NCBI GenBank assembly: GCA_017307065.1
Contig: JAFKGL010000022.1
Location: 1 to 37,512 of the forward strand
Reading direction: 5' to 3'
Source: Candidatus Paracaedimonas acanthamoebae
Lineage (GTDB): Bacteria; Pseudomonadota; Alphaproteobacteria; Caedimonadales; Caedimonadaceae
Length of the DNA: 37,512 nucleotides
Shown here: piece after piece, positions 1 through 12,795 of the stretch
Layout: each line of letters starts with the position of its first letter
Numbering within the stretch: the first letter of the stretch is position 1
Notes under the pieces: generated by a model
The model's input: the letters and a program-made list of their open reading frames with translations, nothing else
Databases searched by the model: none
What the model was told of the DNA's origin: nothing
Position numbers and translations under genes: made by a program

Positions 1-428
1 AAATAAAGGTTTTAAGGGGTTTGAATGGATGAATTTAAGCGAATGACTTTCTGCGTCTTAAACCAAGGATCAACATCGTATGAAAGAAAGAGAGAAAAAT
101 AAAAAAATGACTTAGTGACTGACGAAACCGTACATCAAGGAATGTACACCACATCTTCAGAATCTTCAATGATTTTGAAGAGGACAAGTTCTCAGATTCC
201 CTTGGTACCGGGGAAGAGAGAGACTAGACCAAAATTGGATGTTTGACAGCGTGAATAAATGAAACTAGAGGCCTTGTGAGGCAACTGGCAACTTCAGCGG
301 AAGCAATGGAACCAAAAGTATTTTAAAAGAAACGTTTAATTTTCTATGGTTCAAAAAATAGATGAATGGTGGTGGAAAGGTTTGGAATAGATCTCATGGT
401 GATAAGCTCGATCTATCGGCTGCTTGAG

Positions 429-451
429 ATTCTCGGGACACGCCCGAGAAT
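429..451. repeat. REP-like palindrome (ATTCTCGGG/CCCGAGAAT)
   Basis: Perfect 9-bp arms ATTCTCGGG (429-437) and CCCGAGAAT (443-451) flank the loop ACACG, followed by GACG. Similar GC-rich palindromes ending in an AATGACG-like string are dispersed in intergenic DNA of many alphaproteobacteria, including intracellular ones (general knowledge). It stands out against the AT-rich surroundings. Only one copy was found in this window, so its repeat status is inferred. Confidence 0.5.
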
Positions 452-676
452 GACGAAAAAGAGAGAGGCCAGGACTTCCATAGGTGAGATCTGAATAAGC
501 ATTGAGATAGGGGGAAATGCTACGTTGGCAGAAGTCTTAAATGAGAATGTCTGGGAATGATAAAAACAGAAAACCAAAGTTATTTAGCTCTGAGAGAGAG
601 TGAATGAAAATTCTGAAAACAAGGGGGTAATCATTGTGGAAGGAAGAGAAATTATCAAAAAAAGAAAGACGAGATG

Positions 677-715
677 ATCCTTCTTCCTGTTATTATTTCA
701 ACAAGGAAGAAGGAT
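677..715 (-). terminator. Possible terminator of the YqjD/YqjE-like pair
   Basis: A perfect 12-bp inverted repeat (ATCCTTCTTCCT at 677-688, AGGAAGAAGGAT at 704-715) with a 15-nt loop lies 22 bases beyond the stop of the minus-strand gene ending at 738. In the minus direction a T-rich tract follows, but only after about 8-10 mixed bases, so the termination signal is not canonical. Confidence 0.45.
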
Positions 716-737
716 TTGAAACGTCGGGCGATTGATC

Positions 738-1148
738 TCAAACGACTTTCGAATTTTGATCTTTCCGCAGTTTCGTAAAAAGAGGAAGTAAGAAGCCTGC
801 CACCACAGAGACCGCTAAAATCAGCTCTTTGTGATTCGCATAAGCTTCTTTTAAATGCAAATCTTCGGCTTTATGTTTAAGAGTCTCAAGCGATTTATTA
901 ATCATGGTTTTTTGGCTTTTCTGGCGCGCGATCACCATTAAAATTCCCCCTACAAAAAGCAGAGAACCACTTAAAAGTAACCCTGTTTCAAAGGCTCCCA
1001 AAAAAGGAACAAGATAGTGAAATCCAAAATAAAGGCCAAAACCTAAACCGCCTAAGATAAAGCAAGTTCCAAGAGTGCATAACCAAGAGAACGATTTTTC
1101 TTTCGATTTCAAAAATAAATCCAAAAGATTTAAAGCAAACATCATCAT
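738..1148 (-). CDS. YqjE-like holin-family membrane protein
   Basis: A 136-residue integral membrane protein with three hydrophobic segments at roughly residues 22-44, 52-75 and 109-126, and a charged Lys/Glu-rich stretch between the second and third. Size, hairpin topology and position directly after a DUF883 gene match the YqjE/holin-superfamily-III group, which forms a yqjD-yqjE pair in Escherichia coli. Function in that family is poorly known; inner-membrane association under stress is the usual suggestion. Translation starts one base after the stop of the upstream gene, so the two are surely cotranscribed. Three consecutive Met codons begin the frame, so the exact start is uncertain by two residues. 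It is not part of a prophage: no phage gene is nearby. Confidence 0.6.
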   Translation of the reverse strand: MMMFALNLLDLFLKSKEKSFSWLCTLGTCFILGGLGFGLYFGFHYLVPFLGAFETGLLLSGSLLFVGGILMVIARQKSQKTMINKSLETLKHKAEDLHLKEAYANHKELILAVSVVAGFLLPLFTKLRKDQNSKVV

Positions 1149-1149
1149 T

Positions 1150-1569
1150 TTAACGCCTTAAGAGGTTAGAAAGTAAAATTCCTGCGCCAAAAGCCAATAA
1201 AACGGAGGCTAAGGGACGTTCTGCAATGCGATCTTCAAGCTCATCTAGTTTATCTTGGCCATAACTGATGATCTCTTCCCCTTTTTCTTTTAAAGAATCT
1301 GTGGAGAGTTGTTGAGATATGCCTTTCAATTCATCTTTAAGCTCATCAAAGATTTCTTGGGCAGCCCCTTTGAGATCATCAAAATCATCTGCCGCGGCAT
1401 TTTTTAATTTTCCATAAGCTTTTTCGCCGTCCACTAAAAGTTTCTGTAAATTTTTAGATTTTTTGGGATTCAAATTGTAGGAAGCTGAATCTGAAATATC
1501 ATTAATAATCGTACGGTATTTTTCGAGCCTATCGCCAAAGTTACGAATGATGCTATCATTGGTATACAT
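1150..1569 (-). CDS. DUF883 (YqjD/ElaB-like) membrane-anchored protein
   Basis: A 139-residue protein made of a long charged amphipathic helical region (about residues 5-115) and one C-terminal membrane anchor with a Gly-rich core (residues about 121-136), ending in two arginines. This is the architecture of YqjD/ElaB/YgaM proteins, C-tail-anchored inner-membrane proteins that bind stationary-phase ribosomes in E. coli (family knowledge). A good ribosome-binding site (GAAGGAAGA) precedes the ATG. It is the first gene of a two-gene operon with the YqjE-like gene. A perfect 17-bp inverted repeat lies 35 bases upstream and may be part of its control region. Confidence 0.7.
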   Translation of the reverse strand: MYTNDSIIRNFGDRLEKYRTIINDISDSASYNLNPKKSKNLQKLLVDGEKAYGKLKNAAADDFDDLKGAAQEIFDELKDELKGISQQLSTDSLKEKGEEIISYGQDKLDELEDRIAERPLASVLLAFGAGILLSNLLRR

Positions 1570-1894
1570 AATTCTTCCTTCTCAATTATTTAAATAAAAA
1601 TTCAAGGGAATCAGCTTACAAGGTACAGGGGAGTGAAAACGATTCTGTAAGCTGATTCCCTTAGGTTGTCCGAAGACATTTTTTATTTTAAGAAAGCCTA
1701 TCAGAAACAAAAGTTGAAAAAAGTTGTCTTTTTCTCGTGTTATTTCGTAAGGACTTTAGGAGATTCTTAAATATTTAAGAGAGAGCAAGGTTTTTTTGAT
1801 CAATAAAATTGTCGAAGATCCCTTTATTAAATGACACGCATGGATTATTGTTGAACCCTTATTTAAGGAAGAAAATTTTAAGGATCTCTAAAAA
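1570..1894. other. Divergent intergenic region with long inverted repeat
   Basis: A 325-base AT-rich spacer between the minus-strand DUF883 operon and the plus-strand symporter gene. It must hold promoters for both, but no confident -35/-10 pair could be assigned. Its main feature is the perfect inverted repeat at 1604-1662. No small gene was seen. Confidence 0.6.
1604..1662. repeat. Perfect 17-bp inverted repeat with 25-nt loop
   Basis: The left arm AAGGGAATCAGCTTACA (1604-1620) is exactly complementary to TGTAAGCTGATTCCCTT (1646-1662); pairing stops at both ends. It lies between two divergent genes, so it is not an ordinary gene-end terminator. It could be a leader hairpin or attenuator of the DUF883 operon, an operator, or a small non-autonomous repeat. 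No other copy was seen in the window. Confidence 0.85.
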
Positions 1895-3097
1895 GTGTTT
1901 ATAAGCTATTTAAAAAAGTTACAAAAAAATATTCTTTTTCAATTGGTTATGATATTTACTTTGGTCCTCTTTTTTGGGGAATGTTTTCCTCTTCTTCTGA
2001 AAGAAGGGGCTTATGCCGTGAGTCTTTCGATTAAAGAATTGCTTGTCTTCAGTTTGCCTTTAATCATTTTCAGCTATCTTACATCTTGTCTATTTTCCTT
2101 AAAGGGTGGCGCTTTAAAGTTTATAGTTTTTATTTTGATCGGCGTTATCCTTTCAAATACAATTTCAATTTTAGCGGCCTATGGCGTTAAAATGACAGGA
2201 TTTTTAGAATTTAGTCTTCAAAAAGCAACCATTACAACTCCCTCTGTTATTCTGAAACCTTTATGGCAATTTAGTCTTCCGTTATGGATTAAAAATGATT
2301 GGGCTCTGTTTGCAGGCTTGGGAGTCGGTGCATTTTTAGCTATCTTTCCGCATCCACTCATTGAAAAAGGACTTCGAAAACTCAAAGGAAAAGTCGATTA
2401 TCTGTTGAATAAAATCTTTATTCCATTGCTGCCGGTTTTTATTTTGGGCTTCATTTTGAAATTGAGCCATGAAGGTCAGTTACAACCCATCCTCAAAAAT
2501 TATGCTCATATGTTTGGCATTATTATTACCGCTCTTACCCTCTATATTCTTTTGATGTATGGGGTTGCTGTAAAATTTAAAGCGAGCGCGTGGCGTCAGT
2601 GTTTAAAGAATGTTTTTCCCTCGACTGTGGCGGGATTTTCAACAATGTCGAGTGCCGCGACAATGCCAGTAACTCTTTATGCCGCTGAAAAAAATACCCA
2701 TGGAAATAAGATGGTCGAAGCGATTATTCCTGCAACCGTAAATATTCATCTCATCGGTGATTCAATCGGGGTGCCGATTATGATGATGGTGGTGATGGCG
2801 GCTTTTGGGCATCCTCCGATGGATTTTTCAACATACCTCCTTTTTACAGGATACTTTTTGATGACAAAATTTGCGGTTGCGGCTATCCCTGGTGCGACGG
2901 TTATTCTTATTGTTCCTGTTCTTGAAGCCCATTTTGGGTTTACCGCTGAAATGTCAGCGTTGATCACGTCAATTTATATCTTGTTTGATCCGGTTATTAC
3001 AGCCGCAAATGTGACTGGCAACGGGGCGTTTGCTATTCTTTTCGCAAATTTATTGAGCAAAAAGAAAGCCGCCCCTCGGCAAGCTTTCGTGGATTAA
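1895..3097 (+). CDS. Dicarboxylate/amino-acid:cation symporter family protein, divergent
   Basis: A 400-residue polytopic protein of the DAACS (glutamate transporter GltP/GltPh) superfamily, probably a secondary importer of dicarboxylates or amino acids in the inner membrane. Recognisable elements are the serine-rich HP1 tip SSAATMP (252-258), the TM7-like segment NIHLIGDSIG (283-292) and the TM8 segment with D365, P366 and NVTG (372-375). Several canonical residues differ. The NMDGT motif is absent, the TM8 segment is about four residues shorter between the first Asp and the Asn, the Asp/Arg/Thr of the usual D-R-T pattern are missing, and the final Asp of NVxGD is Asn. Coupling ion and substrate are therefore uncertain. 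The start is a GTG preceded by AAGGA at about 10 nt. The gene is monocistronic and convergent with lysS, ten bases away. Confidence 0.75.
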   Translation: MFISYLKKLQKNILFQLVMIFTLVLFFGECFPLLLKEGAYAVSLSIKELLVFSLPLIIFSYLTSCLFSLKGGALKFIVFILIGVILSNTISILAAYGVKMTGFLEFSLQKATITTPSVILKPLWQFSLPLWIKNDWALFAGLGVGAFLAIFPHPLIEKGLRKLKGKVDYLLNKIFIPLLPVFILGFILKLSHEGQLQPILKNYAHMFGIIITALTLYILLMYGVAVKFKASAWRQCLKNVFPSTVAGFSTMSSAATMPVTLYAAEKNTHGNKMVEAIIPATVNIHLIGDSIGVPIMMMVVMAAFGHPPMDFSTYLLFTGYFLMTKFAVAAIPGATVILIVPVLEAHFGFTAEMSALITSIYILFDPVITAANVTGNGAFAILFANLLSKKKAAPRQAFVD

Positions 3098-3107
3098 AAG
3101 AAGAACC

Positions 3108-4604
3108 TTATGCTTTAGGTCGCATGGTCGGAAAAGCGATGACGTCTCGAATGCTAGGTGAATTTGTTAATAGCATTACAAGGCGATCAATCCCGATTCC
3201 AAGGCCACCTGTTGGCGGGAAACCGTATTCCAGGGCCGTAATAAAGTCTTGATCGAAAGGCATTGTTTCTTCATTGCCACGGGCTTTCGCCGCAACTTGA
3301 GCCTCAAAACGTCCTTTTTGATCTAAGGGGTCTGCAAGCTCCGAAAATCCATTCGCAATCTCCCAAGCGTTCACATACGTCTCAAAGCGTTCTGTAAGGC
3401 GGGGGTTTTGAGGATGAGGTTTTGCCAAAGGCGAGATATCGAGCGGGAATTCTGTCACATGCGTTGGTTGAATCAAGGTGTGTTCAACTTTTTCAGCGAA
3501 TAGCGTTTCGACAACACCACCCCACGAATCGGCGCTGCTCGCATTGATGCCTGCTTTTTGAGCTGCGGCCTTGGCTTCTTCAAGGGAATGAATTTGATGG
3601 AAATCAATTCCTGTTGCTTCTTTGACAAGCTCAAGCATAGGCTTGCGGGCCCAAGGTCCCTTGAAGTCAAGTTGGATATCATTGAAATCAAATAGAAGCT
3701 TTCCAAAAACCTTTTCAGCAACTGCCGAAACCATATTCTCGGTGAGTTCCATCATCTTATGACCATCCGCATACGCTTCATAGATTTCAATCATTGTGAA
3801 TTCAGGGTTATGACGAGTTGAGAGGCCTTCATTGCGGAAATTTCTGTTAATTTCAAAAACTTTTTCAGAAAGGCCTCCGACAATAAGCCGCTTGAGGTAA
3901 AGCTCAGGTGCAATTCTTAAATAAAGCTCCATATCAAGGGCATTATGGTGGGTAATGAACGGTTTTGCCGCGGCTCCTCCTGCCAAAACATGCAACATCG
4001 GTGTTTCAACTTCGAGGAAATCTTTTTTATTCAAATAATCGCGAATGGCAACAATGATTTGTGAACGTTCACGAAGTGTTTGGCGAGACTCAGGATTTGC
4101 AATCAAGTCAAGGTATCGTTGACGATAGCGTGTTTCAACATCTTGAAGTCCATGATATTTTTCAGGTGGGGGAAGTAAGCTCTTGGAAAGAAGGGTCACT
4201 TCTTCGGCATTCACGGTAATTTCTCCACGAGGGGTGCGTCGCACGATTCCTTCAATCCCAATAAAATCCCCTAAATCAAGGAGTTTAATCAGCTCAAATT
4301 GTTCTTCAGTGAGATGATTTTTATGACAAAAGATCTGAAGTTTTTCATAAGGATCACTGAGATCAATGAACATACCACTGTTCCGAATGGAGGCAATACG
4401 TCCCGCAACGCGAACTTTATCTGTCGTTTCTTGGCCAGCTTCTAGAGAAGCATACGTTTGCTGAATTTGACTTAAAGTATGCGTTTTTTCATATCCTGAA
4501 GGATAAGGATCAATCCCTTTTTCACGCAAAATTTCAAGTTTTTTTAACCTGACATTGCGGAATTCATTTTCGTCTTCAGTGGGTGTATTTAAGGGCGTTG
4601 TCAT
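3108..4604 (-). CDS. lysS: Lysyl-tRNA synthetase, class II
   Basis: Charges tRNA-Lys with lysine in the cytoplasm. The 498-residue protein has an N-terminal OB-fold anticodon-binding domain (about residues 50-145, including VRVAGRIASIRNSG) and a class II catalytic domain. Motif 2 is seen in FRNEGLSTRHNPEFT and motif 3 in GLGIGIDRLVM near the C-terminus. An ATG five codons upstream (4619) exists, but the ATG at 4604 is preferred because AGGT stands seven bases before it. Many alphaproteobacteria instead use the unrelated class I enzyme, so the class II form is worth noting. The gene lies downstream of asd on the same strand with a 106-base gap containing TGATCA palindromes. Confidence 0.95.
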   Translation of the reverse strand: MTTPLNTPTEDENEFRNVRLKKLEILREKGIDPYPSGYEKTHTLSQIQQTYASLEAGQETTDKVRVAGRIASIRNSGMFIDLSDPYEKLQIFCHKNHLTEEQFELIKLLDLGDFIGIEGIVRRTPRGEITVNAEEVTLLSKSLLPPPEKYHGLQDVETRYRQRYLDLIANPESRQTLRERSQIIVAIRDYLNKKDFLEVETPMLHVLAGGAAAKPFITHHNALDMELYLRIAPELYLKRLIVGGLSEKVFEINRNFRNEGLSTRHNPEFTMIEIYEAYADGHKMMELTENMVSAVAEKVFGKLLFDFNDIQLDFKGPWARKPMLELVKEATGIDFHQIHSLEEAKAAAQKAGINASSADSWGGVVETLFAEKVEHTLIQPTHVTEFPLDISPLAKPHPQNPRLTERFETYVNAWEIANGFSELADPLDQKGRFEAQVAAKARGNEETMPFDQDFITALEYGFPPTGGLGIGIDRLVMLLTNSPSIRDVIAFPTMRPKA

Positions 4605-4610
4605 GCGAAT

Positions 4611-4614
4611 ACCT
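4611..4614 (-). promoter_or_regulatory. Ribosome-binding site deciding the lysS start
   Basis: AGGT on the minus strand lies six bases before the ATG at 4604. The alternative ATG at 4619 has no such sequence. Confidence 0.5.
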
Positions 4615-4663
4615 ATCATTTTATTTTGGGTGCATTTTCCACATAATAAGGGTGAGGGTCAAG

Positions 4664-4701
4664 AATTTGATCAAATTTATTAATTTGATCAATCTGATCA
4701 A
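4664..4701. repeat. Array of TGATCA palindromes between asd and lysS
   Basis: TGATCA occurs three times (4668-4673, 4686-4691, 4696-4701), with start spacings of 18 and 10 bases. The first copy is inside a perfect 14-bp palindrome, AATTTGATCAAATT (4664-4677). The first two also form an 11-bp stem (4667-4677 with 4682-4692) with a 4-nt loop. It could be the asd terminator, a stem in the lysS leader, or a set of operator sites about 60 bases before lysS. The sequence alone does not choose. Confidence 0.7.
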
Positions 4702-4710
4702 AAAATTTAG

Positions 4711-5718
4711 TTATTTTTTTATAAGTTCTTCTAATATTTGCACAGCATTTAAAGCTGCGCCTTTTCGCAAATTATCAGCAGCGATCCAAAGGGAAAGCCC
4801 TGAAGCCACGGTTGTATCTTGACGTAAACGACTGACACAAACGACGTCTTCGCCGGCAATTTCAAGGGGCGTGATATATCCGTTCTCTTCGGGTCGATCA
4901 AGAACGAAAATGCCTTTTGATTTTTGAAGAGTCGTGCGTGCAGTCTCAACCGTGATCGGTTTCTCAAATTCAACGTTTACGGAAAGACAATGGCCAATGA
5001 ACACTGGGACTCGGACGCAGGTTGCTGTGACCTTGAGAGGCATTTCAAAAATTTTCCGCGTCTCAAGGGCAATTTTTTCTTCTTCAGCTGTGAATCCATC
5101 TCGTTGAAAGCGATCAATTTGAGGAATGAGGTTAAAAGAAATTTGTTTTGGAAAGACATCTTCAGGAATATTTTCATTCACAAGGATAGCCCTTGTTTGG
5201 TTAAAAAGCTCATCCATTGCGGCGGATCCTGCCCCTGAAACGGATTGATAAGTCGACAGAACAATACGTTTAATCTGGGCAAGGTCATGCAGAGGCTTCA
5301 GGGCGACAGTTAAAGGAATGACAACACAATTAGGGCTGGCGATGATGCCGCGTTTTGGTTTTTCTTGAAGGCGATGACTATTGACCTCGGGAACGAGAAG
5401 AGGCACATCTGGTTCAAGGCGGAAATAAGAACTTTTATCCACAATCATTGCACCCGCAGCTGCGGCTTTGGGAAGATATTGCGCAGCAATTTTTGCGTCG
5501 ACGGCGGAAATCACAAAATCAATTCCTGTAAAATCAAATTCTTCAAGCGCCAGCACAGGAAGAACTTTGTCTTCTCCAAAAGAGACTTCGATCCCTTTGG
5601 AACGGTTAGAAGCTAAAGCAAAGATTTCTTTAAGAGGAAAACGACGTTCGACTAAAATATTTAAGGCTTCTCGGCCGACATTGCCTGTGGCCCCTATAAC
5701 TGCGATGCGATAAGTCAT
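4711..5718 (-). CDS. asd: Aspartate-semialdehyde dehydrogenase
   Basis: Reduces aspartyl-4-phosphate to aspartate semialdehyde with NADPH, the branch point to lysine/diaminopimelate, threonine and methionine. Diaminopimelate is needed for peptidoglycan, which may explain why a reduced genome keeps it. The 335 residues show the N-terminal NADP-binding motif GATGNVG (9-15), the catalytic cysteine in SPNC (C131) and the conserved His in VFIGH near residue 248. Length is normal for the bacterial family. AGGA lies seven bases before the ATG. A leader hairpin (5732-5752) sits just upstream of the ribosome-binding site. The neighbour lysS also concerns lysine use, but the gap between them and the palindromes make cotranscription uncertain. 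Confidence 0.95.
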   Translation of the reverse strand: MTYRIAVIGATGNVGREALNILVERRFPLKEIFALASNRSKGIEVSFGEDKVLPVLALEEFDFTGIDFVISAVDAKIAAQYLPKAAAAGAMIVDKSSYFRLEPDVPLLVPEVNSHRLQEKPKRGIIASPNCVVIPLTVALKPLHDLAQIKRIVLSTYQSVSGAGSAAMDELFNQTRAILVNENIPEDVFPKQISFNLIPQIDRFQRDGFTAEEEKIALETRKIFEMPLKVTATCVRVPVFIGHCLSVNVEFEKPITVETARTTLQKSKGIFVLDRPEENGYITPLEIAGEDVVCVSRLRQDTTVASGLSLWIAADNLRKGAALNAVQILEELIKK

Positions 5719-7364: not shown

Positions 7365-8528
7365 TTAATAGGATGAATCCTGTTCTTTAGAATTTTGATT
7401 ATTGACAGGTGGGATTCCTAAGATTTTTAAGGTTTTTATTAAATCTCCTCCGTCTTGAATAAGTTCAGCAAGGAGTTCACTTAAAGACATATCTCCCCAG
7501 GAAACAGCACGTCGAATCAAGTAAGGGGTTGGACTATGAGGTTCCACTTTAGCTAAGTAATCAGAAATTTCTGCAAGCATTTGATACGCTTGTTCCCGAT
7601 TTGTAATTGTCTGAGGTGTATCTTTTTTCATTATTTTTTTTACCAAGTTAATAGAAGAAGCAATTTTGGAGGGTTTTTCTTCTGGTTTTTCATCTTCATT
7701 CTTTCCAGAGAGAGATGGGGGATGAAAGGGTTCTCTTTTTTTAAGGGTAAGTGTCGAAAAATCTTCTAATTTCTTAATTTCTTGTCGTAAGAGATTAAGA
7801 ATTGAAGGATAATTCGAACATTTTTGTAAAATAAAAATTTCTAACTCATTAATAATTTTAATCGTATTTTGACAACTATTCACAAGGTCTTCATAAAATT
7901 CTGCTGGAGTCTGAGATTGGCTTTGAAGAAATTGGGACATTTTTACTGAGGGCTCATTCTGGGTTATTTTACTTTTTTGAGCGGCTTCATGTCCCATTTT
8001 GAGAGTGTTCTCATAACGAGCTGCAATTTCATAATCTGTATAAGTATAACCTTTATTTTTATTATGGGAGGTATGCGTAATTGCCATCAATCGAAGAGGG
8101 ATAAGTAATTTTTCATTTAACCACTCAAGAGGCGCAAGTCGATATTCAATATCTTCTTTTTGAATTTGAGGATGGAGAGTTGTCCAGAAATTTTTACAGA
8201 GGCCAAGACAAAGTGTAATTCCCAATTCAAGTCCTTTCATCCCATACAGCCTCAGCCAAGCGTCTGTGAGCCATGCAGCAACTTGCAGATCTTTAGAGTC
8301 ATTTTGCAAGATAGAACAGGCCAATTCTTCAACTTTTCCCCAATCTGCTTTTTTTAATTCTCTTTGCCAAATACCTAAAGAAAGAGCTTCATCTTCTTCG
8401 ATGCGGGCATTTCGAAGTTGATCATAATGATGTTCATATTGTAAATACCGGCCAGATGGTTCTTTCCCCTTGAGAGGCGTTAAAAGAGATGAAATTTGCT
8501 TTGATGCTTTTTCTAATCCTAAAATCAT
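7365..8528 (-). CDS. tssA: Type VI secretion protein TssA
   Basis: TssA guides assembly of the T6SS tail, contacting the baseplate and membrane complex or the distal sheath end. The 387-residue protein starts with the ImpA N-terminal domain (about residues 1-125): the EPSGRYLQYEHHYDQL stretch, an acidic Glu-Glu-Asp, and the ADW...SKDLQVAAWL...G...GL pattern typical of the family. Its C-terminal part carries PYLIRRAVSWGDMSLSELLAEL, which is the conserved C-terminal helix block of short TssA proteins. It begins one base after the tssM stop, so translation is coupled. It is the last T6SS gene of the operon. Assignment to a TssA structural class would need a C-terminal domain comparison. Confidence 0.85.
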   Translation of the reverse strand: MILGLEKASKQISSLLTPLKGKEPSGRYLQYEHHYDQLRNARIEEDEALSLGIWQRELKKADWGKVEELACSILQNDSKDLQVAAWLTDAWLRLYGMKGLELGITLCLGLCKNFWTTLHPQIQKEDIEYRLAPLEWLNEKLLIPLRLMAITHTSHNKNKGYTYTDYEIAARYENTLKMGHEAAQKSKITQNEPSVKMSQFLQSQSQTPAEFYEDLVNSCQNTIKIINELEIFILQKCSNYPSILNLLRQEIKKLEDFSTLTLKKREPFHPPSLSGKNEDEKPEEKPSKIASSINLVKKIMKKDTPQTITNREQAYQMLAEISDYLAKVEPHSPTPYLIRRAVSWGDMSLSELLAELIQDGGDLIKTLKILGIPPVNNQNSKEQDSSY

Positions 8529-8529
8529 T

Positions 8530-11500
8530 TTAAAAAGCCTTTTTCGAAGGTTGTCCCTTTAACATAAAAGAATCTAATAGGGGTGCCTGTATTGGGAAGC
8601 GTGGAAGGGCAATATATTTTATTTTTGAGCTTTCTTTTTCAGAGGATGCATTTTTCTCTTCTTTTTTACGTTTCACAGTCTCATGAAGAGCAATTCTTAA
8701 GTATACACGGCTATCTGTCGTTTTTTTCTCAAGAGTGGAAGGAGTATCTTCTTGAGGGTTCTCAAGTCTACATGTGGTCGGAATAATAAATTCTAATAAT
8801 GAGCTTGGAGAATTTTTTAGGTTGGATGGTTCTGTCTCATAAGAGATATGTTCTTTAATGAGCTTGATGAGACTCCAACGTCCTGTATATACAAAACTTG
8901 CTTTAGGGCCAATCACAGTTAAATTTGATTGTCGAGGATCCGAAAGGGGGGACAGATCTCCATCTATCGCCCAGCGTAAATCAACAATAATAGGCATTCC
9001 CATGGTCCAAGAAGTTTTCAAATTCTTTTGACGGAAATCAAGTATTTGAGAGCCCACTTGCATACGCCAATCAATAATTTTATCTCCTCCGGCTTCACGT
9101 GTACGATCCGTACGGAATGAGACATCGAAATCAATCTTTGAAGGTATTGTTTGGTCTGCTTTTTGATCAATCGCAGCTAACATTAAAGCACGAATACTTT
9201 GAATATCTTTAACAAAGCGGATCGCTTCAGATTCAGTCCCATCGATTTTGGAATATTTCTCAAGAGAAGAAATTTCTTGTGAATCAAGCATATCGAAAAG
9301 TTCAAAGAAGGTTGTGACGTCATCTTGGTCAGCATCAAAAGTCTCGGAATTTTCTAACTTATGGCTGAAAGGAAAGCGTCCAGCAAGATGGGTGTTAAAG
9401 AATGTTGCAGCTTTATTGTAATGCTCAAAAGCGCGATAAACTGTCACATTTTTACATCTTTTTCTAAGTTGTTTGCTAATGGTGTTGCGAATATCAACAA
9501 AATAATCATTAAAGTCTGTGAAATCATCTTGGAAATCAAGAGAAGCACAATTTTCGAGCGTAATTTCATTGATGTCGTACGTTAAGAAATGTTCGAGAGC
9601 CACTAAAGAACTTCCAGGTGTTTTCTTCTCATAATCATCCACAGCTTTAATAATTCGTGTCCACCAATCGACGAGAGGAATATCAAAAGGAATGTCTTCA
9701 AGATAACCAATACTAAGAAGCGTAAGAATAGGTTCGGCAAGTTCTTTTGCAAGGAAGCTGACTCTGATCCTTTGAGCCTTTAAAAATGCTTTCATGTCAT
9801 TAAGGTCGCGAACACCAAAAGCTTTTAACCCAACCATAAGACTTCCATCCCACCACACAAACATATCTTCGCGTGCAGCGTATAGATCATCATTTTCAAG
9901 AATTTTCTCAATTTTTTGTAATATATGCTGACTCTCATTTACGAGGAGTTGTCTCAGTTGAGTATTTTGAGTCACCAATCCACCTTCATCAAATACGCTA
10001 AAAATTCGAGCGAAGATCGGGACAACTTTAGTCACATTAAGAACTTGGGCTTGAAGAAGTTCTCGCGTTCCAAGACTTGTGCTGTTTGTTGGTTCATCAC
10101 TAAGAACTTGAGACTGAGCCACATAGTTCAACAGACATTGACGCATACTATTGCGGCCAATTAGTTTCATGATGTTTTGGAGGATAGGAGGCATATTATT
10201 GAGACGTTGCCCGATGAAATCTTCGAAATTTTCAATTAATATTCCGGCTTTTTGCAGCGTAAGATCATCCCAAAATAAAAGCTTTCCTGTAGGAACTTTT
10301 GTCATTATTTGTTGATCAACAGATTTCATCATAAAAGGCTCTTCCAAAAACATTGACATATAATCAATGAAATGAATGAGGCCAGGAGAAGGGTCTGAAA
10401 CCAGTTGCCCATTTCTCAGAGAAAATAAAGAACCTGTTAGAGGCGTTGAAAAACTCGCAAGGGCCAATTTAAATTTTACGAATTCTCTTTCAGAGATTCT
10501 ATTTAATTCGATTGAAATATCTTTTCCTAATAACGTCGAAGTCGTAATTTGGCTAATGAGAGAACTATATCCAGGGCCTGGATCAAAAACATCTTTATCC
10601 GCCCAATCAAGGCGACCGCTCGACATAAGATCCGCAGCTGTAATTGCTTCGGCGACGATTTTTCGGAGATCTTCACTTTTATAAGTTCTTGTTTGAGCTG
10701 TATCGGAAAGTTGGACTAATTTTCTAGAAAGGCTTGAAAAAATAGGGAAAGTCTCGTCTAAATTAAAAGCGTGCTCAATAAAATTCTTGTAAATGATACC
10801 AAGTTTTTGTCCCGCTCCTATCTTAAAAGGATTTAAATCAATTGGCCGATCAACACTTAGAGAAAGAGCAGAACTATAATAATCTGCAGAGGTATAAAAT
10901 TGAGAAGGTAGATCTTTATTGAAGAGATATTTTATAAGGGCCGCTAAGTCCTGAATATTACGACTATGTTCAAGGTTATTAAAGTTATGAACTTGCTGTT
11001 CAAGTTGTTGAATTTGCTGAACATAATTCTTAACTGCTAGAAAAGGTTGAGATACCAAAAGATTTGCCTCACCTTGGTTATATCCACTACTGGGGTATTC
11101 AAGTTTCTTCAAAGAAATAATATCTTCTATTTTCTTGATGATGGCAGAGTATAAAGAAGGCAGGATAATTCGATCATAAGCAGCTGAGAAAGAAAGGCGG
11201 ATGTTATGATTTAAATGACTAAACCATGAGGTCGGAATAAAAAGTGAACTGACGTTGACAGTATCAACAGTCGTGAATTTTTCTAAAATAATATCAGCTT
11301 GTTGATCAAGATAGGCCAGAAAACGTGGATCGTCAGAAACGCCTCCTTTGAGACTCACGCCTTGAATAGATTTATCAATCTGAATAAGAGCAGGCATTGT
11401 CGTACTCAACCCTGTTTTAAGAGTATCATGAGCAAAAATAAGTCCCGCCAACCACATAATTCCTAAGGCTGCGGCGGTAGCTTTCACATAATTCAAAATT

Positions 11501-12795
11501 CTATTTGTGGAAATTAAAACTCTCATAATAGGTTGGGCCAAAGTTGATTCAGCAAAGATCTTTTTTTCAAATAAATCTGTCACAAAATAGAGGCGTTCCG
11601 AGAGAGGATTTTGGAATTCTTCTTCATTATTAAGATCAAAATCTGTCGTAATTTTTGGAAGTAGAGAAGGAGCAACTATAGATTCTATAAAAGTCCGGCC
11701 GGTTAAATAAATTCCTCGTAAGAAGAAAGATTCATGATAGGCGCTATCTTTGAAGATTTGGCCTAAATAAATTTGAAGATTTTCTTTAAGGTGAATAAAT
11801 TCAAGAGGTAAGGTAAATACGCCATCAATAAGAGTTGTGGGGGCTTTTTGAGCTGTAAAAATAGAGGCTCGAAGGCGATCTAAGGTTCTATGAATATATC
11901 GAAATGCTTCATCGACCCAAGAAGTCAAAAAATTAGCATCAGTACTATACGGGCTTGACCATCCTAAAATTTCTTGTGAATTTCCAGAAGGAAGGGCTTC
12001 AACAAAGCTTTGGAATCCTGGCATAACGTCACTTTTTGTGAGCACCACATACACAGGAACTTTTATTCCTAAGATATTTTGAAGTTCCCAAAGTTTCGTA
12101 TAGATAACTTTGGCACGTTCATATATTTCATTATGGCTTAATCTGTCTTCAGAGGTTAATTCATCGCATGGTATCGTTAAAATAATGCCATCAAGAGGAC
12201 GTTTAGGACGAAAACGATTTAATAATTGTAAAAGATATCCCCAATCTTGATTATCAGATGAAAGAGAATTTTCGCGGAGGATAAAGGGACCATTTGGTTC
12301 GAGGATTACCGCGCCATCATAGAAACGCCAAATTAATTTAGAATGTTCTTCTGGGACCTCAAATTCGGGTCTTCCAATTGGAAGTTCAAGGTTTAAATTT
12401 TTTAATAAAGTGGTTTTTCCTGATCCTTCAGCCCCAACTAAAAGATACCAAGGCAACTCATATTGAGGTTCTCTAGAGCCTAGATATGTTTTTAAGATTT
12501 CTTCGGTCTGGCGAAATGAATTGCTCATTTCATCTTTGGGAAGTTGCCCCCATCCTAGATGAGAGAATTTGTCTTTAAAAGTTTTTCTCCATGCTAAAAA
12601 GCGTTTGAAGTAAGAGGTATTATTAGTTTGTAAAGGCTGGGGCGCTCGAGTTTTTGTTTTTTGTTTAAGGGATTTAGCAACTGTTTTTTGAGCAAAAAAT
12701 ACTAAAAATATAACTAATAAAACACCTAAAGCGAGTGCAATAAAAACGAAATAGGGAAGGTAGGGGAGAAAAGCTTGCAGAATTTCAGTAATCAT
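8530..12795 (-). CDS. tssM: Type VI secretion membrane-complex protein TssM (IcmF)
   Basis: Central scaffold of the trans-envelope complex, bridging TssL in the inner membrane to the lipoprotein TssJ. The 1421-residue protein, longer than the roughly 1,100-1,300 residues common for the family, has two N-terminal membrane helices close together (about 10-34). A cytoplasmic NTPase-like domain follows, with an intact Walker A GAEGSGKT (121-128) and TKSD (253-256). It also has the family signature FFLRGIYLTG (357-366), a third membrane helix near 438-455 and a large periplasmic region. Because Walker A is preserved, nucleotide use is plausible, although some TssM proteins lack it. A strong AGGAGG ribosome-binding site precedes the ATG. 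It follows tssL by nine bases. Confidence 0.93.
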   Translation of the reverse strand: MITEILQAFLPYLPYFVFIALALGVLLVIFLVFFAQKTVAKSLKQKTKTRAPQPLQTNNTSYFKRFLAWRKTFKDKFSHLGWGQLPKDEMSNSFRQTEEILKTYLGSREPQYELPWYLLVGAEGSGKTTLLKNLNLELPIGRPEFEVPEEHSKLIWRFYDGAVILEPNGPFILRENSLSSDNQDWGYLLQLLNRFRPKRPLDGIILTIPCDELTSEDRLSHNEIYERAKVIYTKLWELQNILGIKVPVYVVLTKSDVMPGFQSFVEALPSGNSQEILGWSSPYSTDANFLTSWVDEAFRYIHRTLDRLRASIFTAQKAPTTLIDGVFTLPLEFIHLKENLQIYLGQIFKDSAYHESFFLRGIYLTGRTFIESIVAPSLLPKITTDFDLNNEEEFQNPLSERLYFVTDLFEKKIFAESTLAQPIMRVLISTNRILNYVKATAAALGIMWLAGLIFAHDTLKTGLSTTMPALIQIDKSIQGVSLKGGVSDDPRFLAYLDQQADIILEKFTTVDTVNVSSLFIPTSWFSHLNHNIRLSFSAAYDRIILPSLYSAIIKKIEDIISLKKLEYPSSGYNQGEANLLVSQPFLAVKNYVQQIQQLEQQVHNFNNLEHSRNIQDLAALIKYLFNKDLPSQFYTSADYYSSALSLSVDRPIDLNPFKIGAGQKLGIIYKNFIEHAFNLDETFPIFSSLSRKLVQLSDTAQTRTYKSEDLRKIVAEAITAADLMSSGRLDWADKDVFDPGPGYSSLISQITTSTLLGKDISIELNRISEREFVKFKLALASFSTPLTGSLFSLRNGQLVSDPSPGLIHFIDYMSMFLEEPFMMKSVDQQIMTKVPTGKLLFWDDLTLQKAGILIENFEDFIGQRLNNMPPILQNIMKLIGRNSMRQCLLNYVAQSQVLSDEPTNSTSLGTRELLQAQVLNVTKVVPIFARIFSVFDEGGLVTQNTQLRQLLVNESQHILQKIEKILENDDLYAAREDMFVWWDGSLMVGLKAFGVRDLNDMKAFLKAQRIRVSFLAKELAEPILTLLSIGYLEDIPFDIPLVDWWTRIIKAVDDYEKKTPGSSLVALEHFLTYDINEITLENCASLDFQDDFTDFNDYFVDIRNTISKQLRKRCKNVTVYRAFEHYNKAATFFNTHLAGRFPFSHKLENSETFDADQDDVTTFFELFDMLDSQEISSLEKYSKIDGTESEAIRFVKDIQSIRALMLAAIDQKADQTIPSKIDFDVSFRTDRTREAGGDKIIDWRMQVGSQILDFRQKNLKTSWTMGMPIIVDLRWAIDGDLSPLSDPRQSNLTVIGPKASFVYTGRWSLIKLIKEHISYETEPSNLKNSPSSLLEFIIPTTCRLENPQEDTPSTLEKKTTDSRVYLRIALHETVKRKKEEKNASSEKESSKIKYIALPRFPIQAPLLDSFMLKGQPSKKAF

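Follow-up and report, generated by a model that had tools for sequence, protein, structure and literature searches.

The open reading frame at positions 1895–3097 (+ strand, GTG start) of the window, by which the whole analysed stretch of 37,512 nucleotides is meant, encodes an SDF/SLC1-type transporter of 400 amino acids. The window lies on contig 22 of a 1.65-Mb genome. A single Pfam family was matched by the product, SDF (PF00375), at 129 bits against a cut-off of 27.9 and with the alignment confined to residues 158–385; the protein is a member of the sodium:dicarboxylate-symporter (SDF/SLC1) family. Its best NCBIfam match, to SstT (NF010151), scored 30.9 bits, below the cut-off of 308, and DctA (NF002461) scored 20.9 bits, below the cut-off of 513. 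Among named relatives, the closest found were two Caedibacter metagenome assemblies, whose orthologues share 87 and 75 % identity with the window protein. The dN/dS ratios in the three pairs formed by the window gene and two orthologues were 0.077, 0.077 and 0.094, values made imprecise by the high dS (1.0–2.2). The reading frame is a real gene under strong purifying selection. AlphaFold2 models of the protein had mean pLDDT values of 36 (three alignment rows) and 48 (six rows), and neither, both being of low confidence, was used for distances. When the latter low-confidence model (pLDDT 48) was submitted to Foldseek, the best 50 of 148 matches (E up to 10) were all SLC1 proteins, with TM-scores of approximately 0.3–0.55. 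Kinship with GltPh and GltTk is indicated by sequence profile, and weakly by model.

The gene lysS and two small upstream genes adjoin the transporter gene in the loci of the two nearest relatives (L005 and L006); in L045, a locus of 5 kb, none of the window's other neighbouring genes had a match. The neighbouring genes were considered as a clue to the substrate and set aside, lysS and the upstream pair having been found beside the gene in L005 and L006 and not in L045. The two small upstream proteins (738–1569, − strand), a pair conserved next to the transporter in two Caedibacter relatives, gave sub-threshold holin-X-like and YtxH-like Pfam matches. Promoter-like sites were found at chance level (4, versus 4.0 in shuffled sequence), and there was no Rfam match in window positions 1–5000. 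Elsewhere in the window, at 7365–12795 on the − strand, reading frames of 387 and 1421 amino acids presumably encode type VI secretion-like proteins (TssA- and TssM-like by eye).

The register of the window protein was set by phmmer against PDB chains, by an hmmsearch profile, by MAFFT with canonical proteins and by profile–profile comparison with GltP, DctA, SstT and TcyP of E. coli. By all of these, TM7 and TM8 match the canonical proteins residue for residue; one MAFFT alignment contained a four-column gap in TM8, which is caused by an insertion in SstT alone. Window residues P279–D289 pair without gaps with PLGATINMDGT, N283 being the equivalent of GltPh T308, and A254 that of S279. The first-pass annotation had described TM8 as about four residues short and had set NIHLIG against the NMDGT motif. 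The former is not upheld, since TM8 aligns at full length by several methods. As to the latter, an NMDGT motif is indeed missing, but the proposed match was off register by two, the true counterpart being HLIGD (H285–D289). A register in which N283 equals N310 and TM8 is four residues shorter was rejected on the basis of the ungapped alignments.

For the phylogenetic analysis, SDF proteins were gathered from 57 relatives, a class sample, a phylum sample and plasmid matches. The tree comprised 115 rows and was a quick IQ-TREE run with SH-aLRT support only. Five fragments (two from L003, two from L055, and L046_+2) were left out beforehand, as was a match in genome G254 with ten internal stops; the protein of a putative viral contig (L132) stands outside the tree. 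It is apparent that the window protein falls within a clade of 77 rows (support 99) on a stem of 1.41 changes per column; several terminal branches are long, so the inner order of the tree is uncertain. One row counted among the 77, L131, stands on a very long branch (2.98), and its motif fits poorly. The clade is a large and apparently undescribed branch of glutamate-transporter-type proteins in host-dependent bacteria. No description of it was found in the open-access literature that was searched; the available passages of papers on Hepatincola, Rickettsia and Amoebophilus name glutamate/aspartate symporters or GltP, and contain no pocket analysis.

In GltPh-type transporters, as described in PMC12668577, the substrate is bound by R397 at its side-chain carboxylate, by D394 at its amino group and by N401 at its main-chain carboxylate. 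T314 is a further substrate-coordinating residue, all three sodium sites converge on the NMD loop, and D394 favours amino acids over dicarboxylates. The amine-binding Asp is D365 in the window protein (2987–2989; this and the following residue coordinates in the window are on the + strand) and is kept in all 77 rows. T369-A-A-N372 (2999–3010) corresponds to T398 to N401, with T398 kept in 74 rows and N401 in 76. The combination of D394 and N401, a feature of SLC1 proteins for amino acids and not dicarboxylates, is therefore present. Also kept are G313 (77 rows), S277 (69) and S278 (75), the last two as S252-S253 in the tip of HP1, T250-M251-S252-S253 (2642–2653; GltPh 275–278), where Met takes the place of R276. 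The side-chain specificity position, R397 in GltPh, is I368 (2996–2998) and is basic in none of the 77 rows (33 Ile, 11 Ala, 10 Val, 8 Gly, 4 Ser, 3 each of Phe, Met and Leu, and 2 Thr). The claim that the arginine for the substrate carboxylate is absent was thus borne out. It had further been stated that TM8 had lost its Arg-Thr and its second Asp. Only the Arg has gone, the Thr being kept as Thr369; the second Asp is Asp365, and the one lost is the first, D390, now Y361 (2975–2977; Tyr in 58 rows, Asn in 12 and others in 7).

The sodium sites are changed as well. Na3 is described as built from T92, S93, N310 and D312 (PMC4693270). The first two correspond to S87-N88 in TM3 (2153–2158), and Ser replaces T92 in 73 rows, as Asn does S93 in 73 and T308 in 74. 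In TM7, H285-L286-I287-G288-D289 (2747–2761) aligns with NMDGT 310–314 and carries N310H, M311L, D312I and T314D. Position 310 is His in 62 rows, Gln in 12, Asn in two and Ser in one; position 312 is hydrophobic throughout (34 Ile, 24 Val, 15 Leu, 4 Met), and position 314 is acidic in 75 of 77 (71 Asp, 4 Glu, 2 Val). D405 is replaced by N376 (3020–3022), the position being Asn in 67 rows, His in eight, Gln in one and the original Asp in one. The loss of acidic sodium ligands, reported in the first-pass annotation, holds for two of the sites: D312 is gone from 77 and D405 from 76 of the 77 rows. The conversion of NVTGD (as in GltTk) to NVTGN was also correctly observed but is nothing special, as E. 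coli GltP (NVVGN) and DctA (NLVGN) are alike in this respect. Finally, K325 in HP2a (2867–2869) stands at GltPh S349 in the Na2 region, beside the third sodium site, where 72 of 77 rows have a basic residue (51 Lys, 21 Arg, 3 Gln, 2 Met). Na2 is described as held by carbonyls of TM7 and HP2, with participation of the S349 carbonyl of GltPh implied (PMC4693270); the available passages of PMC6175574 do not name its ligands. An Arg and Asp residues elsewhere in the binding pocket had been named as what would speak against the earlier reading; charged residues do appear in or near it, in the form of the new Asp at 314 and the new Lys or Arg at 349. The two are not strictly paired, as Val314 occurs with Lys in two rows, Asp314 with Met in two and Glu314 with Gln in three. 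A strict Asp314–Lys349 salt bridge was accordingly rejected as a rule, 7 of 77 rows departing from it.

Set beside the Na+-coupled aspartate transporters GltPh and GltTk, the window protein shares D394, T398 and N401 and differs by N310H, D312I, T314D, S349K, D390Y, R397I and D405N. The GltPh-type features of sodium-coupled glutamate and aspartate transport are therefore absent at N310 and D312 (H285, I287), at R397 (I368) and at D405 (N376). With the H+-coupled GltP and DctA of E. coli it has in common Leu at 311 (L286) and Asn at 405; in contrast to them, it has Ser (S87) and not a hydrophobic residue at 92, Ala (A254) and not Glu at 279, no Arg397 and no D312. The serine/threonine:Na+ symporter SstT of E. 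coli resembles it in having other residues at 397 (Glu) and 312 (Ala) while keeping D394, T398 and N401, but retains N310, D405 and R276. A further likeness, set out from the description in PMC12830385, is with BB0401 of Borrelia, a divergent SDF protein with a poorly conserved pocket and Asn405; for BB0401, however, uptake of Asp and Glu is demonstrated.

The sister of the 77-row clade is a group of ten rows (SH-aLRT support 97; support for the join, 100). Five of these are proteins from plasmid records (Bacteroides, Parabacteroides, Tepidibacter, Persicobacter and E. coli), annotated as dicarboxylate/amino acid:cation symporters, and the other five come from genomes of a single family (f192) that shares the window's phylum but not its class. 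All ten sister rows resemble the clade in having H310 and Y390, in lacking Arg397 (Gly in the sister rows), and in keeping D394, T398 and N401. They are unlike it in having S314, M349 and D405, again in all ten, and Ser, Ala or Cys at 312. Because the sister rows share H310 and a non-Arg 397, yet have S314, M349 and D405, Arg397 was probably lost, and His310 gained, at an earlier stage, and D314, Lys/Arg349 and the Asn residues at 308, 93 and 405 would have arisen on the stem of the clade. The Parabacteroides sister gene (L066, 72–2679) overlaps the end of an nhaC Na+/H+ antiporter gene, possibly a hint that the sister group uses sodium.

Matches to a profile of the clade (E ≤ 1e–40) were found in 34 of 385 genomes of the class, all of 0.6–2.6 Mb, and in all ten genomes of the window's order. 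In the phylum sample 8 of 398 genomes matched, namely the five of the sister group and three from the class of the window. A strong match to ATP/ADP translocase (E < 1e–80) was present in 30 of the 34 carriers, versus 14 of the 351 other genomes of the class, and any such match in 31 versus 24 (Fisher P of approximately 1e–29 and 2e–27, respectively, in tests that take no account of shared ancestry). Four carriers, G033, G165, G186 and G313, show no strong match. Genome size and the translocase are taken as evidence that the carriers depend on host cells, with the reservation that the genomes are not phylogenetically independent.

Where two or more intact copies of the clade gene are present, they differ at position 397 in 20 of 23 genomes; in the other three (G014, G150 and G329) all copies have Ile397 and are distinguished by positions 310 and 390. 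In G007 and G009, Val, Ala, Ile and Gly forms at 397 occur in matching paralogue lineages, and three of the clade copies of G007 lie in tandem. The entropy at 397 is 2.55 bits, versus 2.39 for the median column and 0.00, 0.27 and 0.10 for D394, T398 and N401; the flanking positions 396, 399 and 400 vary too (1.96, 2.64 and 2.95 bits). The variation at 397 among copies is read as tuning for different side chains. A second clade member of the window's genome, of the NIQQIGD type (L060, C25:27000–34000, frames from approximately 2743 and 3398), is split into two reading frames; intact counterparts exist in G001 and G002 (L041 and L049).

A clade member also lies on a 39.8-kb plasmid of Lawsonia intracellularis (L065, 3899–4840; 41 % identity over 69 % of the query), its annotated coding sequence beginning later than the open frame (3647). 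The protein is nested among alphaproteobacterial members, as one of nine rows grouped with support 100, a placement that suggests transfer. Searches of viral contigs returned no relatives with the queries A3, L067 and L041, one with A1 and two with A4. The relative found with A1 is that of the putative viral contig from IMG/VR (L132, 2887–4101), a clade member with HMLGD in TM7, AKF in HP2 and DPFCT..N in TM8. It lies near frames that appear ParA- and MazF-like by eye, and the contig is possibly a plasmid or phage-plasmid.

For the window protein, the reading preferred here, to which about even confidence is attached, is that of an elevator-type SLC1/SDF importer, from a clade adapted to intracellular life, that would take up non-acidic (neutral or polar) amino acids from the host cytosol without classical Na+ coupling. 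With D394 and N401 kept and R397 lost, amino acids other than Asp and Glu are indicated, and the absence of D312 together with D405 speaks against a classical Na+ mechanism. A different substrate or coupling ion had already been put forward in the first-pass annotation; this is still the best reading of the loss of R397, D312 and D405, although some of the support given for it came from a wrong alignment and D405N is found in the H+-coupled GltP of E. coli. The backbone of the amino acid would be held as in GltPh, its amine by D365 and its carboxylate by N372, with T369 kept, and transport would not be driven by the classical three Na+. Protonatable or fixed charges may instead stand in for the ions, with His285 at Na1/Na3, Asp289 in the side-chain pocket and Lys325 by Na2. 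Residue I368 would tune specificity, the paralogues differing there so as to cover different amino acids.

Uptake by such an importer would be proton-coupled, uncoupled or by exchange. The published signature of H+-coupled members consists of a hydrophobic residue at 92, L311 and N405, with E279 as the putative proton site, and members with completely different signature residues are said not to be excluded (PMC12668577). As the window protein agrees with this signature at 311 and 405 and not at 92 and 279, a proton carrier, if there is one, must be another residue than E279; His285 and Asp289 would be candidates. This partial agreement counts to some extent against the preferred reading. So do the low pLDDT values of the models (36 and 48), the seven rows that depart from the Asp/Lys pair, the occurrence of His310 already in the sister rows, all ten of which have D405, the derivation of lifestyle from genome size and ATP/ADP translocase, and the example of BB0401, in which a degraded pocket can still serve Asp and Glu.

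That example is also what the existing annotation has in its favour. Relatives are annotated as dicarboxylate/amino acid:cation symporters, and the protein might still import glutamate and aspartate (or dicarboxylates) through a re-invented pocket, as BB0401 takes up Asp and Glu despite poor conservation (PMC12830385). The clade, however, has no basic residue at 397 and an acid at 314 in 75 of 77 rows; R397C alone, as described in PMC5750217, abolishes aspartate transport by GltPh and confers transport of serine and alanine; and D394, linked to a preference for amino acids rather than dicarboxylates (PMC12668577), is invariant. This possibility is regarded as unlikely. Slightly less doubtful is an importer of cationic amino acids (Lys, Arg, His or ornithine), in which Asp289 would bind a positive side chain and so replace the pairing of Arg397 with a negative one. 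Position 314 is indeed a substrate-coordinating one in GltPh-type sites (PMC12668577), and 397 is never basic. Against this, the Lys or Arg at 349 in 72 of 77 rows could neutralize the Asp, the small and hydrophobic residues at 397 fit varied neutral side chains, and the association with lysS was found in no relatives but the two nearest.

Classical Na+-coupled transport of neutral amino acids in the manner of SstT or ASCT, with altered sodium sites, would account for SstT being the best NCBIfam match (though far below its cut-off), for the absence of R397 and D312 from SstT too, for the hydroxyl that stays at 92 in 73 of 77 rows and for the overlap of one sister gene with nhaC. It is weakened by the fact that SstT keeps N310 and D405, whereas here His and Asn leave no acidic ligand at Na1/Na3, and it is considered the least likely of these three alternatives. 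That the protein is a decaying or non-transporting relic, as the split second copy in the same genome might be taken to imply, is very improbable in view of dN/dS ratios of 0.077–0.094 among three orthologues and of the conservation of D394 and G313 in 77 rows and N401 in 76.

The reading as a non-acidic amino-acid importer can be extended, tentatively and with distinctly lower confidence, to the history of the clade. In intracellular bacteria, and partly on mobile DNA, sodium ions may have been exchanged for side chains, His at Na1/Na3 and Lys or Arg at Na2; the new pocket Asp would be a proton-switched group, and copies would have radiated over amino acids via position 397. By analogy only, Lys325 beside the Na2 site recalls Lys191 of GkApcT, a protein of another fold, which is said to stand in for the sodium of Na2, yet was found not to be needed for proton coupling (PMC5803215). 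If the proposal were true, the clade would be an SLC1 counterpart of the ApcT-type lysine that substitutes for Na2, one that arose under sodium scarcity. For the question of how sodium coupling is lost among SLC1 transporters, the clade offers a natural candidate. The acidic ligands are missing from its Na1 and Na3 sites, a conserved Asp and a conserved Lys or Arg have been gained, and its sister lacks that pair, so that the change could be tested by residue swaps. Annotations as glutamate symporters in host-dependent bacteria may, moreover, name the wrong substrate, which matters for what these bacteria take from their hosts.

Other SDF proteins were encountered in the same searches. Another one in the window's genome (L061, C15:11000–18500, frame from approximately 3035) has CRYGN for NMDGT and keeps DPLRT in TM8, and groups in the tree with L024, L028, L062 and L063. 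A further clade (L020, L021, L022 and L023) has NMN(G/A)C in TM7 and Glu397 (DMIET or DMVET), followed by NVWSD.
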